Source: Candidatus Methanomethylophilaceae archaeon (GTDB lineage: Archaea > Thermoplasmatota > Thermoplasmata > Methanomassiliicoccales > Methanomethylophilaceae). Taken from it: a DNA stretch of 55,168 nt. Positions 45,044 to 53,858 of the stretch are shown here, piece after piece (the stretch's first letter is position 1; each line of letters opens with the position of its first letter). The stretch lies in contig JAFVZY010000098.1 in the NCBI GenBank assembly GCA_017507885.1, forward strand, positions 1 to 55,168. Reading direction: 5' to 3'. The notes beneath the pieces were generated by a model that was given only the letters and a program-made list of their open reading frames with translations, made no database searches and was not told where the DNA came from. Made by a program: the position numbers and the translations under genes.

Positions 45044-46510
45044 ATGAATGGGATGAACAAGGCGGTCGTGTCGATCGTCTATGGAATTGCACTCTTGTTC
45101 ACCGGGGCGTGTCTCGCGTTCTCGGTGTTGGAACTTCAGAAGACGGGCGTCCCGAGGTTGGAGGTGTTCTCGCCGCTGTTCGATGCGTCCGGAATCACCG
45201 GACCCTTCTCGCAGGCGTATGCGGACGTCATGGAACTCCTCTTCGGATGGGGCGGTGTGGAGGCGATGTATGCCGTGATGGTCGTGGGATTCGTCTTGGC
45301 CGTAGCCGGGATGTTCACCGGATACCCCTTGGACGTCAAGGGCGTGGGTAACCGTGCGGAGGTCATCTGGACCGAGAGGCCGAATGCGGCGGTCAGGTGC
45401 CTCTCTGGACCCTGGGGTTTGATCACGGCGGCGTACGGCAGGAACAGGTATCTCGTCATACTGCCGATCGCGCTCCTCCCACTGTACGGATGGTGGTCGC
45501 TGATACTCACGATATCCATGGTCCCCGTGTTTGTGGTCGTCAAACTGGTCATCGGTGTGATGGTCGACCGTGCCAGGAGGAGGGACAGGGAGGCCTACGA
45601 AAGGGACACCCAGTATGCCGTCTGCCCCGTGTGCAAGAGGAACTTCGACTACCCCCAGGTGCGTTGCGGTTGCGGCATTGTGCTGGATTATCCCGTCCCC
45701 GGAATCCACGGAATCGGCAGGATCACATGCAACAACGGACACGGCATGGACTGCAGGGCCGGACTCAGGGATTCCCTGAAGACCGTGTGCCCCTATTGCG
45801 GGGAATCCATCGAGACCCGTGAGTCCAGACCGATATGCATATCGCTGGTCGGCTCCGTCGGTTCCGGGAAGACGACCCTGATGCTGTCGGCGGTGGATTC
45901 GATACAGAAATCCGCCGTGAGACATGGCGTCAACACGGATGCGGTGACCCCCGGGATAGGGTCGTCCGCGATCGCGGGAAGGATGGATGTCCCCGCGACC
46001 CCGGAGGGGGAGCTGGATTCGGAGTGTCTGTTCATAAGGTCCCCGTATCTGCACGGAAGGGAGCTCGTCTTCAACGACATCTCCGGAAGGGAGTTCGAAC
46101 CCCGCAAGGACAGGTTCATCTTCCAGGAGTACTACTCCTACACCGACGGGATCGTGTTCTGCGTGGATCCGTTGAATCTGGATTCACGCACGTCGAAGAT
46201 AAGGCCGATGGACGTCTTCGAATCCTTCCATTTCATATTCACCCGCGTCAAGGGTTTCGGGCCGGAAACCGTCTCCAACGTCCCGCTGGCGCTGGTGCTC
46301 ACCAAGAGGGATGTGACGGGTGTGGACGACGACGGGGTCGAGGATTATTTGCGCGACAACGGACAGGGGGAGTTCGTGAGGATCCTGAAGTCCTTGTTCT
46401 CCGACGTTCGCATGTTCTCCGTGTGTTGTTTCGAGGACTCCTCCAGACCTGTGTGGTGGATCATGGAGTCCAGTGACCCCGAGCTTGTGGAACACGTGCC
46501 TTTGGAATGA
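45044..46510 (+). CDS. Membrane-anchored double-GTPase-like (DO-GTPase2-type) protein with zinc ribbons
   Basis: 488 residues. An N-terminal membrane region with segments about 8-28, 75-95 and 140-165; a Cys-rich region with CPVCKRNFDYPQVRCGCG and CPYCGES resembling zinc ribbons (about 190-260); then a P-loop domain with LVGSVGSGKTTL (G1), FNDISGREF (Asp-x-x-Gly, G3) and ALVLTKRDV (Thr-Lys-x-Asp, G4), so GTP binding is likely. Similar proteins occur in bacterial conflict systems of GTPases with partner modules; the partner here is not evident. It is leaderless with TATA TTAATAATC about 27 nt upstream, and is divergent from the 1139-aa surface protein. Confidence 0.72.
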   Translation: MNGMNKAVVSIVYGIALLFTGACLAFSVLELQKTGVPRLEVFSPLFDASGITGPFSQAYADVMELLFGWGGVEAMYAVMVVGFVLAVAGMFTGYPLDVKGVGNRAEVIWTERPNAAVRCLSGPWGLITAAYGRNRYLVILPIALLPLYGWWSLILTISMVPVFVVVKLVIGVMVDRARRRDREAYERDTQYAVCPVCKRNFDYPQVRCGCGIVLDYPVPGIHGIGRITCNNGHGMDCRAGLRDSLKTVCPYCGESIETRESRPICISLVGSVGSGKTTLMLSAVDSIQKSAVRHGVNTDAVTPGIGSSAIAGRMDVPATPEGELDSECLFIRSPYLHGRELVFNDISGREFEPRKDRFIFQEYYSYTDGIVFCVDPLNLDSRTSKIRPMDVFESFHFIFTRVKGFGPETVSNVPLALVLTKRDVTGVDDDGVEDYLRDNGQGEFVRILKSLFSDVRMFSVCCFEDSSRPVWWIMESSDPELVEHVPLE

Positions 46511-48358: not shown

Positions 48359-48817
48359 TTGGAAAACGAGATGAGAGGTGTCGGATCAACCCTGCATTGC
48401 TACGATAGGAACTACTACCGTCCCGATCTCTGTCCCAGGGAACCCCGGGTCAAAAGCGTACCGGATGTAATCGATTTCAACCATTCCTTGGCGAGGTTGG
48501 AACCGATTCTGCTTTTCGCCGGATTCAACATCGGGGAGGCGCGGATAATAATCGCTCTTCTGATCTACGAGAGGCTGGGTGCAAGAGACCTTCTCAGATT
48601 GACTGGAATGAAGCAGTCCGCCGTTTCACGTTCGCTTGATACGTTGAACTACCACGGTCACCTTCTGGTGAGGGTCGGTAAGGACAAAGGGAGGCCGTAT
48701 CAGGTGTACAGTCTGAAATACACCCCGAAGGAGGTCGTCGCAATGATGAAGGACAGGTTGAAGGAGCGTGAGGACGATCTGGACGTCCTCATGGATGTTC
48801 TGGAGTTGAGTGAATGA
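48359..48817 (+). CDS. Winged helix-turn-helix transcriptional regulator
   Basis: 152 residues (TTG start at 48359; ATG 48371 is the alternative, 15 nt from GAGGTGA). The core is a wHTH of the MarR/TrmB-like type: IIIALLIYERLGARDLLRLTGMKQSAVSRSLDTLNYHGHLL with a wing RVGKDKGRPYQVYSL, then a C-terminal charged helix (KDRLKEREDDLDVLMDVL) for dimerisation. It lies between the glycosyltransferase and the sugar isomerase genes, so it probably regulates this cluster. Its stop overlaps the next start (ATGA). Confidence 0.82.
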   Translation: MENEMRGVGSTLHCYDRNYYRPDLCPREPRVKSVPDVIDFNHSLARLEPILLFAGFNIGEARIIIALLIYERLGARDLLRLTGMKQSAVSRSLDTLNYHGHLLVRVGKDKGRPYQVYSLKYTPKEVVAMMKDRLKEREDDLDVLMDVLELSE

Positions 48818-49782
48818 TGCGGACCGACTACGAATCCATCCGTTGGGAGGATGGGGTCGAACTTGCACCATGGGTGGAGAGGACCTCGTTCCCGGAGCAG
48901 CTGCGCTTCGGGATGGGTTTTTCCAAAAAATACGATTACAAGGCGGGGAAGGTGTGCATCTTCAGCACCACCGGTTCCTGCACCGCAGGGGACATCCTCT
49001 GTGACTATTCGAACGAGTTTTCCGATGTTTGTATATCATCGTATTCCTCCGCGAGGTTGCCCGGCTGGGTGGATTCGGATACGGATCTGTTCCTCGTCTC
49101 CTATTCCGGTTCCGTCGGGGAGTTGAAAGGTGTTCTGGAGAAGGCCAAGCAATCTGGGTGTAGGATTCATGCCGTCACCTCCGACAGGGATTGGGAATTG
49201 ATCCACGGATTGGATTGCGACGTCTGCATTCTTCCCAAAGGCATGGCTTCTGATTGTGCCACGGGTCTGATTCTCGGTGCTTTGGTAGGGATGTTGGATT
49301 CCCTTGGAGTTTCTGGAATCAGAGATGATTTCGAGGCTATGGTTCCTGTGTTACGGGAATATCGTGATTTTTTCCTTCTCGATGACGATTGGTTAAAGGG
49401 CATGAGGTGTTTTTTCAAGGGAAAAGTCCCCTCGTTCTACAGTTATCCTCATATGCGTTCAGTCGGAAAGAGGTGGAGAACGACTTTTATCAAGGAAATT
49501 GGAGATTTGGCTTTTGATTCTGAATTTCCCGAATTCAATCACAATGAGATTGTTGGTTGGGCGGATGCCAAGGAACATTCTTGGGATCTTTTGCCTGTGT
49601 TCTTTTCTAGAGGTGTTGTCCTTAACATGAATGATGCTATCCTGAGTTGTACTTTGGAGGTGTTGGATTCCAAGGGACGCGATTATTTAATTATAGATTT
49701 CGAGGGTTGCAATGATTTGGAGAGGATTCTAAAGGGCGTGATGATGGCTGATTTCGTGAATTTCAAAGGGTGTTTGCAGTGA
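48814..49782 (+). CDS. PGI/PMI-like SIS-domain protein A (phosphate loop lost, catalytic His motif kept)
   Basis: 322 residues related to the bifunctional phosphoglucose/phosphomannose isomerase family. The first SIS half has lost its sugar-phosphate loop: FSTTGSC (50-56) stands where the family has a Gly-rich Gly-Met-Gly-Gly-Ser-Gly loop. SYSGS (96-100) is only partly kept, the Pro-Arg motif is absent (KGMASDC), and the catalytic Glu region is changed (FIKEIGD). Yet FPEFNHNEIVGW (238-249) with the histidine at about 243 is perfect. The C-terminus ends early, without the final Lys helix. Its stop overlaps the start of gene B. GC content falls within this gene from about 49.2 kb. Probably the partner subunit of B. 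Confidence 0.78.
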   Translation: MMRTDYESIRWEDGVELAPWVERTSFPEQLRFGMGFSKKYDYKAGKVCIFSTTGSCTAGDILCDYSNEFSDVCISSYSSARLPGWVDSDTDLFLVSYSGSVGELKGVLEKAKQSGCRIHAVTSDRDWELIHGLDCDVCILPKGMASDCATGLILGALVGMLDSLGVSGIRDDFEAMVPVLREYRDFFLLDDDWLKGMRCFFKGKVPSFYSYPHMRSVGKRWRTTFIKEIGDLAFDSEFPEFNHNEIVGWADAKEHSWDLLPVFFSRGVVLNMNDAILSCTLEVLDSKGRDYLIIDFEGCNDLERILKGVMMADFVNFKGCLQ

Positions 49783-50801
49783 AGAGTGTGGAAGAGCAGT
49801 TGGCCAATTTTGTCGAGGATTTGGAGCAGAGCATCCAGTATCAGGTAAAATCCAATATTTTTTGTAAGAATGTTCTTCTTTGTGGGATGGGTGGATCTGG
49901 ATTCAGTGGGATGTTTGTTTCCGATTATTGTTTTGAAGATTCGAAGATACCGATTAAGACCAACGGAAATCCGTATCTTCCAAAGTGGGTGTCAGACGAT
50001 ACGTTGTTGGTAATATCCAGTTATTCTGGGAACACTGTTGAGGTTTTGCAGATGTTTCTGGATGGTATTGAGAAAGGATGTAGAATTATCACTATGTGTT
50101 CTGGAGGTAAATTGAAAAAACTTGCTGATGAATATGAAGTTGAATGTATTTTACTTCCAGAGGATATGCAACCGCGTCATGCGATAGGGTTTATGATTGG
50201 GTATACCTTGGCTATTATGGATAAGGTTGGGGCCGTGAATGATTTGGAAGATGTTCGTGGTTGCATAGTTGGGTTGAAAGCATATCGTGATTCGTTGAGT
50301 GATTATAAATCGGATAATGAGGCTAAAAGAATAGTCAAAATGATTGAGGGGTGTGTTCCGATGATATGCATCGATCCAAGTTTGATTTCTATAGGTTTTA
50401 GATGGAAGACCCAAATCAATGAAAATTCCAAGAGGGTTGCGTTTAAGCATGTGACCAAAGACTCGATTGTGAGAATTGTGGATGCTTGGGGAGATTCTCA
50501 TAGGAGGGAGTTTGCGTTGGTATCCATGTTAGGTTATGATGATGGTTTTGTTGATAGTAACCGTATGATAATTGTCAAAGATGGTTGTATTGATAATTCG
50601 ATTCCGTTTATGGGTTGTTTTATCCATTGTGATTCTATGGTTGAAGGGATGTTAAAATATCTTATTCTTGGTGATTATATGTCTTTGTATCTTGCTAAAA
50701 AGAGCGAAGTGGAGCCTACTGCAGTACCTTCAATTACAGATTTAAAAAATAGAATGAAACAAATGTTTTGTAGAATGAATATTTCAGATTTATTTAAGTA
50801 A
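49779..50801 (+). CDS. PGI/PMI-like SIS-domain protein B (phosphate loop intact, His motif lost)
   Basis: 340 residues from GTG 49779, which overlaps the stop of gene A (GTGA). It keeps the sugar-phosphate loop LCGMGGSGFSG (about residues 35-44), SSYSGNTVE, the Pro-Arg in EDMQPRHAIGF, and KTQINENSKRVAF with the catalytic Glu, plus a C-terminal helix with Lys (ITDLKNRMKQMF). In the segment where the family has Asn-His-Asn-Glu it reads KHVTKDSIVRIVDAW, so the ring-opening histidine is missing. This is the mirror image of gene A. Together they could isomerise or bind a hexose phosphate for the glycan encoded by this cluster. The gene is AT-rich compared with the chromosome to its left. Confidence 0.82.
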   Translation: MKSVEEQLANFVEDLEQSIQYQVKSNIFCKNVLLCGMGGSGFSGMFVSDYCFEDSKIPIKTNGNPYLPKWVSDDTLLVISSYSGNTVEVLQMFLDGIEKGCRIITMCSGGKLKKLADEYEVECILLPEDMQPRHAIGFMIGYTLAIMDKVGAVNDLEDVRGCIVGLKAYRDSLSDYKSDNEAKRIVKMIEGCVPMICIDPSLISIGFRWKTQINENSKRVAFKHVTKDSIVRIVDAWGDSHRREFALVSMLGYDDGFVDSNRMIIVKDGCIDNSIPFMGCFIHCDSMVEGMLKYLILGDYMSLYLAKKSEVEPTAVPSITDLKNRMKQMFCRMNISDLFK

Positions 50802-50829
50802 GTGATTTATTATTGAAAATAACATTTTG

Positions 50830-51630
50830 ATGGATGGGTGTGAGACAATAGATATTTCAAATCATTTAAGGGAAATATATGAATCCCGCAATATACTTCA
50901 TTCTTTGATAATAAAGAACTTATTTGGCAGATATAGAAATACATACTTCGGATTTGCATGGCATTTTTTTACTCCAGCTATAATGATGCTTGTTTATTTT
51001 TTTGCATTCACCCAGTTGAGAACAGCACAACTCGATAATTTTTGGATTTATCTTGGATCTGGTTTATTTCCTTTTACATTCATGGTGACCAATCTTACTG
51101 GAGGTTCTGGAACAATTGTTTCAAATTCAGGGATGATTAAAAAAATGTATTTTCCTCGCGAAATACTGGTCTTATCGCAAGTGATTAGTACGTTTATAAT
51201 AATGCTTTTAGGTTATGTAATTATTGTGATTGCGATGGTGATTACTGGGTTTGAATTGAGTATTACAATTTTATTGTTACCTATTATATTTCTATTGATG
51301 TTTTTATTTGTATATGGGTATACTCTATTATTTTCATCTATCGCAGTATACAGTAGAGATTTACAATATTTCTTATCATCAATTAGTATAGTTTTTATTT
51401 TTATGACTCCCATGTACTTCACTGTAGATTCTGTAGCAGGTCCATTAAGTACACTGATATGGTTTAATCCTTTTACCTATTATATAGAGTCAATTCATCA
51501 GTTGGTATTTTTTGGAATTGTTCCTGACTTGGGGTTGTTAGCAATGTGCTTATTGTTGCCTATGATATCAATGGTAGTTGGGCAATACGTATTCAATCGT
51601 CTAAAGAAAGGGTTTGCGGAGAGACTGTAA
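50830..51630 (+). CDS. ABC-2 type polysaccharide export permease (Wzm/TagG-like)
   Basis: Membrane subunit that exports a lipid-linked glycan. 266 residues, six membrane segments, N-terminal cytosolic amphipathic part with LIIKNLFGRYRNTYFGFAWHFFTPAIMMLVYF (the typical family start: Arg-Tyr-x-x-x-x-Leu-Gly-x-x-Trp), PLLFPF-like GSGLFPFTFMV, NSGMIKKMYFPREIL (the conserved Phe-Pro-Arg-Glu coupling motif), and TPMYFTVDSV...WFNPFTYYIESI. ATG 50830 is preferred over TTG 50827. The stop codon overlaps the ATPase start (TAATG). Strongly AT-rich. Confidence 0.92.
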   Translation: MDGCETIDISNHLREIYESRNILHSLIIKNLFGRYRNTYFGFAWHFFTPAIMMLVYFFAFTQLRTAQLDNFWIYLGSGLFPFTFMVTNLTGGSGTIVSNSGMIKKMYFPREILVLSQVISTFIIMLLGYVIIVIAMVITGFELSITILLLPIIFLLMFLFVYGYTLLFSSIAVYSRDLQYFLSSISIVFIFMTPMYFTVDSVAGPLSTLIWFNPFTYYIESIHQLVFFGIVPDLGLLAMCLLLPMISMVVGQYVFNRLKKGFAERL

Positions 51631-53858
51631 TGGAAGAAAATAATGCAATTATATTAAAAAATGTAACTAAGTCTTTTTCTGTTGATATTGTTACGGTAGA
51701 CGCTAAAAAGAAGTTATATAAAAACAGTGTTAAACGGTCAAAGAACATTGTTATTGATGACATATCATTGGAGATAAAGAAAGGGGATGTTTTAGGGATA
51801 GTTGGGAGGAATGGTTCTGGAAAAAGTACTTTATTATCATTAATTGCAAAAATATTAGTTCCCGATGAGGGATTGGTAGTTTGTAATGGAAAGGTTGCAT
51901 CAATTTTAGAGTTGGGCATGGGTTTTCATCCAGATATGACTGGGCGGGACAATATTTACTTAAAAAGTGAACTCTATGGTTTTGATAAAAAAGAGATTGA
52001 TAAAAAAATAGATACGATTATAGATTACTCAGGTATTCGTGGATATATAGATAATCCTGTTAGAACCTATTCATCTGGAATGATGGGTAGATTGGCCTTT
52101 TCAATAATGGTTAATGTGGAATCAGATATAATGATTGTTGACGAGGTATTAAGCACGGGTGATGCAACTTTTTCGTTAAAAGCACGTGAACATTTTAGAA
52201 AGATGGCAAAAACAAAAAAGACAATTGTGTTTGTGTCCCATAATTTACATGATTTGGAATCGATGTGCAATCGCATAATATGGATTGAAGATGGAAAAAT
52301 CGTTGAGGATGGAAAACCTTCAACCGTGGTATCACATTATCAGAATGCTATGATATCTTCTCCAGAGATAATATATGATTTGGCCATGGGTGGTGTATCA
52401 AAAGCTCAATATGATTTAGCTTTAATGTATAAATGTGGTAATTTTTTTGATAGAAATTATGACATGTATCGTGAGTTGTTAAAGAAATCTGCTGAGCAGG
52501 GGTATATAAAAGCTCAAATTGAATATGCTGATGTGTTGATGGATAGTAATCCGACAGAGGCTTTGATTTATTTACAATCCGCAGCATTAAAGGGCGATCA
52601 ATTTGCTAAGCAGAAGTTATCTATGATTAATTCGAATTCAGATAATGACTATGCTGTATTGGATGATATTTTAAAGAAAGCGATGCATAGCAACGACTCT
52701 ACATGGGTATATAGATATGCGGAGTTTAAATACAGATGTGCAAAGAGTATGGATGATTATGCTGAAGCATTTGGTTATTATTTGAGAGCTGCTGAATTAG
52801 ATAATGTATCAGCGATTTATCAGATAGCTATAATGTATCGTGATGGAATCGGTATTGGAAAAAATTATATCGAAATGGAGAAGTATTTGAAGATGGGTGT
52901 AAACCATAACCATCTGCAAAGTATATTGTTGCTTGCGGATATATATTTGCAAGGTAAATTACTTCAAAAAGATGAGAGTCAAGCTTTAAATCTGTATACA
53001 AAAGCTGCTGAAATGGGTAATGCTGGGGCATTGTTTAAGCTAGCAACATTTTATTCCGAAGGAATTGGTGTTGAAGCAGATGTCGAAAAATCTAATAAGT
53101 ATTATAAAAAATATAATGATTCCTTACTGAACATATATCGCACATGGGCATTTGAGTATATTAAAAATAATAAAACTGGGGTGGATTCATTGACCAGCAT
53201 ATTAAGTTCAAGTGTACCGATTATCAATTCTGCGATGATAAATGCCTTGTTATCCAACAGTGAGTCGTGTAAAGATGATGTTCATAAAAATATAGAATCA
53301 TTATGTTTGTTGTCCGACAATGATAATATTGAATCTATCAAGATTCTTGGAAAGATGTATGTTGAGGGGGTGGCCGTGGACCGGAATCCGGGCAGGGCCC
53401 TGTCACTTTTCGAGAAGGGTGCCAAATTGGGCGATCCCTGGTGTAAAAATAAATGTGCGGAGATGTATCGCGACGGGGTCGGTACCGTTGCGGATGTCTC
53501 AAAATCCATACACCATCTGAATGATCTCGCTGAACGCGGCAATGTACAGGCCATATCCAGTCTGATTAACATATACCTGGGGATGAGTGATGCCCCCGAG
53601 GAGGAGGTGATCGCCCTTGTAGGCCTTCTGGAAAACCTGGCCAATACGGGCAACGTCGAGGCCTGTAAGCGTCTGGGTATCTTTTTCATGGATGGGGTGG
53701 CCGTGGACCGGAATCCGGGCAGGGCCCTGTCACTTTTCGAGAAGGGTGCCAAATTGGGCGATCCCTGGTGTAAAAATAAATGTGCGGAGATGTATCGCGA
53801 CGGGGTCGGTACCGTTGCGGATGTGAAAAAAGCAATAAGGTGGTGGATGGAATGTTGA
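51630..53858 (+). CDS. ABC exporter ATPase (Wzt/TagH-like) fused to Sel1-like repeats
   Basis: 742 residues. Residues 1 to about 245 are a polysaccharide-export ATPase: Walker A GRNGSGKST (60-68), Q-loop region ELGMGFHPDMTGRDNIYL, signature TYSSGMMGRLAFSI, Walker B IMIVDEVLSTGD and the switch His in FVSHNLHD. From about 255 to the end come Sel1-like repeats (AQYDLALMYKCGN, AIYQIAIMYRDGIGIGKNY, AGALFKLATFYSEGIGVEAD) in place of the carbohydrate-binding domain found at this position in classical Wzt. The last roughly 165 residues are encoded by GC-rich DNA with a perfect internal 131-bp repeat. It pairs with the upstream permease. Its stop overlaps the next start. Confidence 0.88.
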   Translation: MEENNAIILKNVTKSFSVDIVTVDAKKKLYKNSVKRSKNIVIDDISLEIKKGDVLGIVGRNGSGKSTLLSLIAKILVPDEGLVVCNGKVASILELGMGFHPDMTGRDNIYLKSELYGFDKKEIDKKIDTIIDYSGIRGYIDNPVRTYSSGMMGRLAFSIMVNVESDIMIVDEVLSTGDATFSLKAREHFRKMAKTKKTIVFVSHNLHDLESMCNRIIWIEDGKIVEDGKPSTVVSHYQNAMISSPEIIYDLAMGGVSKAQYDLALMYKCGNFFDRNYDMYRELLKKSAEQGYIKAQIEYADVLMDSNPTEALIYLQSAALKGDQFAKQKLSMINSNSDNDYAVLDDILKKAMHSNDSTWVYRYAEFKYRCAKSMDDYAEAFGYYLRAAELDNVSAIYQIAIMYRDGIGIGKNYIEMEKYLKMGVNHNHLQSILLLADIYLQGKLLQKDESQALNLYTKAAEMGNAGALFKLATFYSEGIGVEADVEKSNKYYKKYNDSLLNIYRTWAFEYIKNNKTGVDSLTSILSSSVPIINSAMINALLSNSESCKDDVHKNIESLCLLSDNDNIESIKILGKMYVEGVAVDRNPGRALSLFEKGAKLGDPWCKNKCAEMYRDGVGTVADVSKSIHHLNDLAERGNVQAISSLINIYLGMSDAPEEEVIALVGLLENLANTGNVEACKRLGIFFMDGVAVDRNPGRALSLFEKGAKLGDPWCKNKCAEMYRDGVGTVADVKKAIRWWMEC
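53367..53824 (+). repeat. Perfect 131-bp direct repeat inside the ATPase-Sel1 gene
   Basis: 53367-53497 and 53694-53824 read identically base for base, offset 327 bp (109 codons, so in frame). Each encodes GVAVDRNPGRALSLFEK and on to MYRDGVGTVAD. The block is GC-rich, whereas the gene before it and the gene after it are AT-rich. Confidence 0.9.

Follow-up and report, generated by a model that had tools for sequence, protein, structure and literature searches.

Adjacent PGI/PMI paralogues with reciprocally lost active-site halves in Methanomethylophilaceae archaea: a probable one-site heteromeric isomerase

Introduction

The active site of PGI is shared between two protomers, with Gly, Ser, Ser, Lys, Thr, Thr, Gln, Glu and Lys residues contributed by one of them and a single His by the other (PMC9436075). 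Composite sites with a His from the other subunit are the rule in the PGI superfamily. In the bifunctional PGI/PMI of Pyrobaculum aerophilum (1tzb/1x9h; PF10432, TIGR02128, PRK08674), the family, the fold and the site residues match those of two adjacent archaeal gene products, here called A and B, when these are combined. Known PGI/PMI enzymes carry both halves of the site intact on one gene (33/33 members checked from other bacteria and archaea), whereas in the A-B pair the halves lie on two genes. Heteromers of paralogous subunits have been described in other families. Galactose-6-phosphate isomerase, LacAB, is encoded by adjacent paralogous genes and is a heteromer with one site at the interface, a second that is vacant, and subunits that are inactive alone (PMC3755991). 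In trypanosomatids, DHSc/DHSp (PMC3663545) and AdoMetDC/prozyme (PMC5201418) are obligate heteromers in which a diverged paralogue is required for the activity of its partner. Molecular evolution has long asked how a homomer turns into an obligate heteromer when no new function is gained, and a site that is naturally split between chains offers one route, since duplication lets one whole site decay.

The pair considered here lies in a stretch of 55,168 nucleotides (the window) on contig JAFVZY010000098.1 of a Candidatus Methanomethylophilaceae archaeon. With a probability of about 0.84, A and B are interpreted as partner subunits that together form a heteromeric aldose-ketose isomerase belonging to the SIS-fold PGI/PMI family; dimerisation, catalysis and the substrates (G6P, F6P and M6P) are inferred. 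The basis for a heteromer is homology, reciprocal retention and loss, co-inheritance, purifying selection and the absence of other PGI/PMI families.

Two overlapping genes of the PGI/PMI family

Gene A (48814..49782, + strand, 322 aa) encodes a PGI/PMI paralogue that is proposed to be the His-donor subunit and has a degenerate pocket of its own, and gene B (49779..50801, + strand, 340 aa) encodes one that is proposed to bind the substrate and provide the catalytic base without the partner His. The stop codon of A and the start of B overlap in the sequence GTGA (49779..49782, + strand), an arrangement that might balance the synthesis of the two proteins, as the sequence-only reading of the window conjectured. 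The GTG at 49779 was taken as the best start for B; a GTG at 49770 is also permitted by the ORF tool. The genome measures 1.64 Mb, is 89% complete and has no family member other than A and B.

Homology to the bact-PGI_C domain, which served as the membership test for SIS-fold PGI/PMI, is above the cut-off for both proteins: PF10432 (cut-off 24.5 bits) matches residues 201-316 of A with 60.5 bits (E 2.3e-16), and B with 84.5 bits (E 9.7e-24). Against the PRK08674 models, A reaches E values down to 1.3e-26 and B is matched over nearly its full length at E 1.4e-55, and both stay below the cut-off (best 93 of 254 bits and 189 of 471 bits, respectively). By the NCBIfam equivalog standard, A and B have thus both diverged too far to qualify as the enzyme. 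Neither polypeptide has a complete site (loop, SYSGNT, Arg, Glu, His and Lys), which is found only in the two as a set. This also serves as a warning for annotation, as each protein would be labelled either as a PGI/PMI or as a broken one, and neither is complete.

The pair is flanked in the window by an HTH gene, a GT2 glycosyltransferase and an ABC-2 exporter. The first of these, a winged-helix regulator-like gene 5' of A (48359..48817, + strand), overlaps A in the sequence ATGA and likely belongs to the same operon; its matches to TrmB (E 4.5e-4) and to an MreA-type regulator (E 1.8e-9) are weak, each being below the cut-off. A conserved upstream regulator was considered and rejected, as this gene was not seen beside other A-B pairs. 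Further downstream, an ABC2 permease (50827-51630) adjoins a polysaccharide-export-type ABC ATPase that is extended at its C-terminus, within the same frame, by a long series of Sel1 repeats (51546-53858, + strand; ABC_tran E 1e-18, Sel1 E 1e-37), and a fusion of Sel1 repeats to an export-type ABC ATPase looks unusual. At 45044-46510 (+ strand), the window also encodes a membrane protein of 488 aa that ends in a Double-GTPase 2 domain (PF19993, E 3e-9).

Reciprocal loss of active-site residues

A sequence-only reading of the window had claimed that A lost its sugar-phosphate loop, Pro-Arg motif and catalytic Glu and kept a perfect His block, and that B kept the former set and lost the latter. 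Motif tables and column scoring bear this out. In A, the degenerate phosphate loop STTGSCTAG (48964..48990, + strand) places STTGS where GMGGS is expected, and SYSGSV stands at the position of SYSGNT. Ser-Asp replaces Pro-Arg (49249..49254, + strand), and a Lys replaces the catalytic Glu (49492..49494, + strand), the adjacent Glu228 being one residue off. The block NHNEIVGW (49537..49560, + strand) is intact, with H, N and W present in 25/25 A proteins, and its His243, which corresponds to His219 of 1tzb, is the proposed partner-supplied His.

The features of B, likewise on the + strand, comprise the phosphate loop GMGGS (49884..49898; G38 and S40 in 24/24 B), the phosphate-binding motif SYSGNT (50019..50036; Y82, S83, G84 and T86 in 24/24), Pro132-Arg133 (50172..50177; 24/24) and the catalytic Glu215 within NENSK (50421..50423; 24/24), and alignment to 1tzb equates Arg133 with Arg135 and Glu215 with Glu203 of that structure. 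At the place of the His block stands VRIVDAW (50469..50489), the His being found in 1/24 and the Asn in 2/24 B proteins. Two further reciprocal features had been overlooked earlier. A conserved C-terminal Lys segment is missing from A and present in B, where Lys323 (50745..50747, + strand; Lys298 of 1tzb) occurs in 24/24 B and 0/25 A, and Tyr209 is found in all A and never in B.

The same split emerges without hand-picked motifs. In 25 A and 24 B proteins, 45 alignment columns were scored whose residue is shared by 90% or more of 47 canonical members, drawn from other bacteria and archaea (33), from other families of the order (8) and from genus g7 (5) and their like. As the 33 outside members were retrieved by His-block patterns, part of the His conservation among them follows from the way they were chosen, which does not apply to their Pro-Arg, Glu and Lys. 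The A proteins are invariant at Pro, Gly, Tyr, His, Asn and Trp (100%), retain the Glu and Val of the His block in 96%, and have fallen to 36% at the loop Gly, 48% at the loop Ser, 12% at Thr, 24% at Pro, 16% at Arg, 20% at Glu, 8% at Asn and 0% at the C-terminal Lys. The B proteins keep 100% at the loop Gly and Ser, Thr, Pro, Arg, Glu, Asn, Lys218 and Lys323, and retain 0-8% at Tyr, His, Asn, Val and Gly, nearly the reverse of the losses in A. With loss defined as retention of 25% or less, none of the 45 columns has been lost from A and B alike. This pattern is what a one-site heterodimer would predict.

A composite site from two subunits

That the ring-opening His of PGI comes from the partner subunit, as the sequence-only reading had stated, agrees with the published PGI structure (PMC9436075); for A and B the statement rests on this plant PGI paper and on residue mapping. 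When B and canonical copies were combined into a profile, this aligned to 1tzb with E 1.1e-32 and placed the active-site positions at Arg135, Glu203, His219 and Lys298. The double-SIS fold is supported for B by this alignment and for A by predicted structure, since the AlphaFold model of A (pLDDT 90.6, pTM 0.91) has 1tzb as its best PDB match (Foldseek, TM 0.61-0.66). In one related genome (G073), only a TGA codon separates A from B and the reading frame is shared, and an A-B fusion was built from these sequences. The resulting model (pTM 0.68) has an artificial helix across the joint, its B part was folded from one sequence, and it is uninformative on packing.

In the proposed mechanism, the ancestor would have been a homodimer with two equal sites, each formed by the phosphate loop, SYSGNT, Arg, Glu and Lys of one subunit and the ring-opening His of the other. 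Following duplication, A may have retained only the His block, which it lends to B, whereas all other parts were kept by B. A dimer of A and B would thus contain one working site, made of the B pocket and His243 of A, and one dead site, made of the A pocket and the lost His block of B. With the His coming from the other protomer, as in PGI, all parts of one composite site are kept and all of the other have decayed, and both retention patterns are accounted for by a single cause, selection having been relaxed on exactly one composite site. A heterodimer in which one site is complete and the other empty, as first suggested from the window alone, remains the best fit to the column test, to the mirrored trees and to the purifying selection described below; its assembly is inferred.

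Distribution, neighbourhood and function of the pair

The relatives with named records belong to Candidatus Methanomethylophilaceae and Methanomassiliicoccales and are chiefly rumen and gut MAGs. PF10432 proteins occur in 26/31 genomes of the genus, which consists of gut methanogens, and are missing from the other 5. The A-B pair is present in 23 genomes including that of the window, always with A followed by B on one strand, overlapping or nearly touching. One genome has A alone at a contig end (G101), two have one intact copy each and no pair (G079 and G091), G084 is the only one with both a pair and an intact copy, and G089 has a pair together with a third, diverged copy. A pair close to those of the archaeal genus was also observed on contig L203 (CALURX010000104.1, 6001-7823), which is filed as a Candidatus Gastranaerophilales bin and is probably misbinned.

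Since a further 23 pairs (22 genomes and contig L203) and one A-only contig end show the same split, the complementary losses of A and B are not due to chance. According to the motif tables, all A have His-Asn and all B have Pro-Arg, Glu and Lys and lack His-Asn. The decay is not uniform, as A retains Pro-Arg and a Glu-like residue in three genomes (G080, G085 and G092), and one B (G087) retains the His and not the Asn.

Other PGI/PMI families (PF00342, PF06560 and PF01238) were not found in any of the 31 genus genomes, with positive controls, which leaves the A-B pair as the sole candidate of a known type for this function. The genus does not strictly depend on this function, since the fairly complete G083 (96%) and G090 (91%) have no PF10432, PF00342, PF06560 or PF01238 protein.

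The neighbourhood bears on the reaction. An archaeal GlmM (TIGR03990, above cut-off) adjoins the pair in 20/23 genomes, which fits a supply of hexose phosphate for surface sugars; none was seen beside the copies fetched from outside the genus, where the flanks were short. No GlmS was found above the cut-off in the 31 genus genomes, the matches covering only its N-terminal 230 positions (the amidotransferase part) or a short SIS stretch. Both observations would also suit an A-B heteromer that has acquired a new reaction, for example the production of glucosamine-6-phosphate for the neighbouring GlmM, and the lack of GlmS keeps such a role possible. This interpretation is nevertheless held to be improbable, because no canonical PGI/PMI catalytic residue is missing from the combined A and B site, 10 of the 20 GlmM genes are on the opposite strand and the pair in the window has no GlmM beside it. 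Moreover, archaeal GlmM-family mutases may also use mannose or glucose phosphates.

Origin and selection

In the tree, genus A proteins form one clade and genus B proteins another (SH-aLRT 99 each), and the two subtrees mirror each other (co-phylogeny r 0.85 against a maximum of 0.42 in 5000 permutations), a correlation that partly reflects shared species history. With other families as the outgroup, genus A joins the A-like copies from sister genera (support of 97 on the branch that leads to the rest), and the A lineage is therefore older than the genus. An origin by duplication is part of the reading that fits best; the two were not born in place as an adjacent pair, the A lineage being found at separate loci in sister genera. 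Intact copies of the family in G084, G091 and G079 (L085, L086 and L087) cluster in the tree with those of genus g7, which suggests transfer or replacement. Genus g12 (L094 of G117 and L141 of G112) harbours a third diverged lineage with HNSLE[AG]W and the other motifs intact.

The A-like copies of sister genera keep HNE[IL][VI]GW. In most of them Pro-Arg has become Ser-Arg, and the C-terminal Lys is missing. Other copies in these genera show decaying His blocks (YNEISGW, PNELSGW, YNDVSGW and HGDFEGM), with at least three His losses in separate genera (g6, g9 and g14). By their motifs, the sister genera keep unlinked, partly decayed intermediates. The His or Asn is lost in 9/37 sister-genus copies that share a genome with an A-like copy, versus 0/32 elsewhere; these counts lack phylogenetic independence, and the set does not include every A-like copy.

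These losses are relevant to the possibility that B is a self-sufficient homodimer for which the ring-opening His is dispensable, for instance with an open-chain or different sugar phosphate, and that A is a dead regulator or stabiliser. Some SIS-fold isomerases do work without the His block. There is also precedent for a dead paralogue that activates its partner, as in trypanosome DHS (PMC3663545). However, nothing would make a pure regulator conserve the His, Asn and Trp of 25/25 A proteins when the rest of the site is lost, the block is gone from B in every pair, and the losses in sister genera favour genomes with an A-like copy, so that this explanation is considered decidedly improbable. 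That A or both genes are decaying pseudogenes is barely conceivable and was rejected, for despite the strong divergence of A (mean tree distance among copies of 2.8 changes per site) the frames are open in all genomes, the His block is invariant, the fold of A is confidently predicted, and both genes are under purifying selection, with dN/dS well below 1 (A 0.17-0.40, B 0.12-0.34; seven close pairs).

Under the preferred one-site heteromer, the course of decay can be read residue by residue, from intact single copies through the partly decayed, unlinked copies of sister genera to complete reciprocal loss in overlapping genes within the genus. A conceivable if unlikely extension is that stepwise reciprocal decay gave an obligate one-site heteromer which may also make glucosamine-6-phosphate for the adjacent GlmM without GlmS. 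As A and B are small soluble proteins, they offer a directly testable system.

Comparison with known systems

The one-site heteromeric mode of an isomerase is already known from LacAB, and no report of a heteromeric PGI/PMI, or of a one-site heteromer in the PGI superfamily, was found in the open literature, outside of which most subscription papers lie. DHSc/DHSp and AdoMetDC/prozyme differ from the A-B pair in that they mainly involve activation by a catalytically dead paralogue, and they concern other enzymes in another domain of life. LacAB is of the RpiB/LacAB fold and family, which is unrelated to A and B, whose Pfam, NCBIfam and Foldseek matches are all SIS/PGI and none RpiB. Furthermore, the A-B heteromer is inferred, and graded intermediates such as those of the sister genera are not described for LacAB in PMC3755991. 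What the two systems have in common is the arrangement itself, two paralogous and adjacent genes; A and B are co-inherited and have reciprocally lost the halves of a site, as a one-site heteromer of the LacAB type would require.
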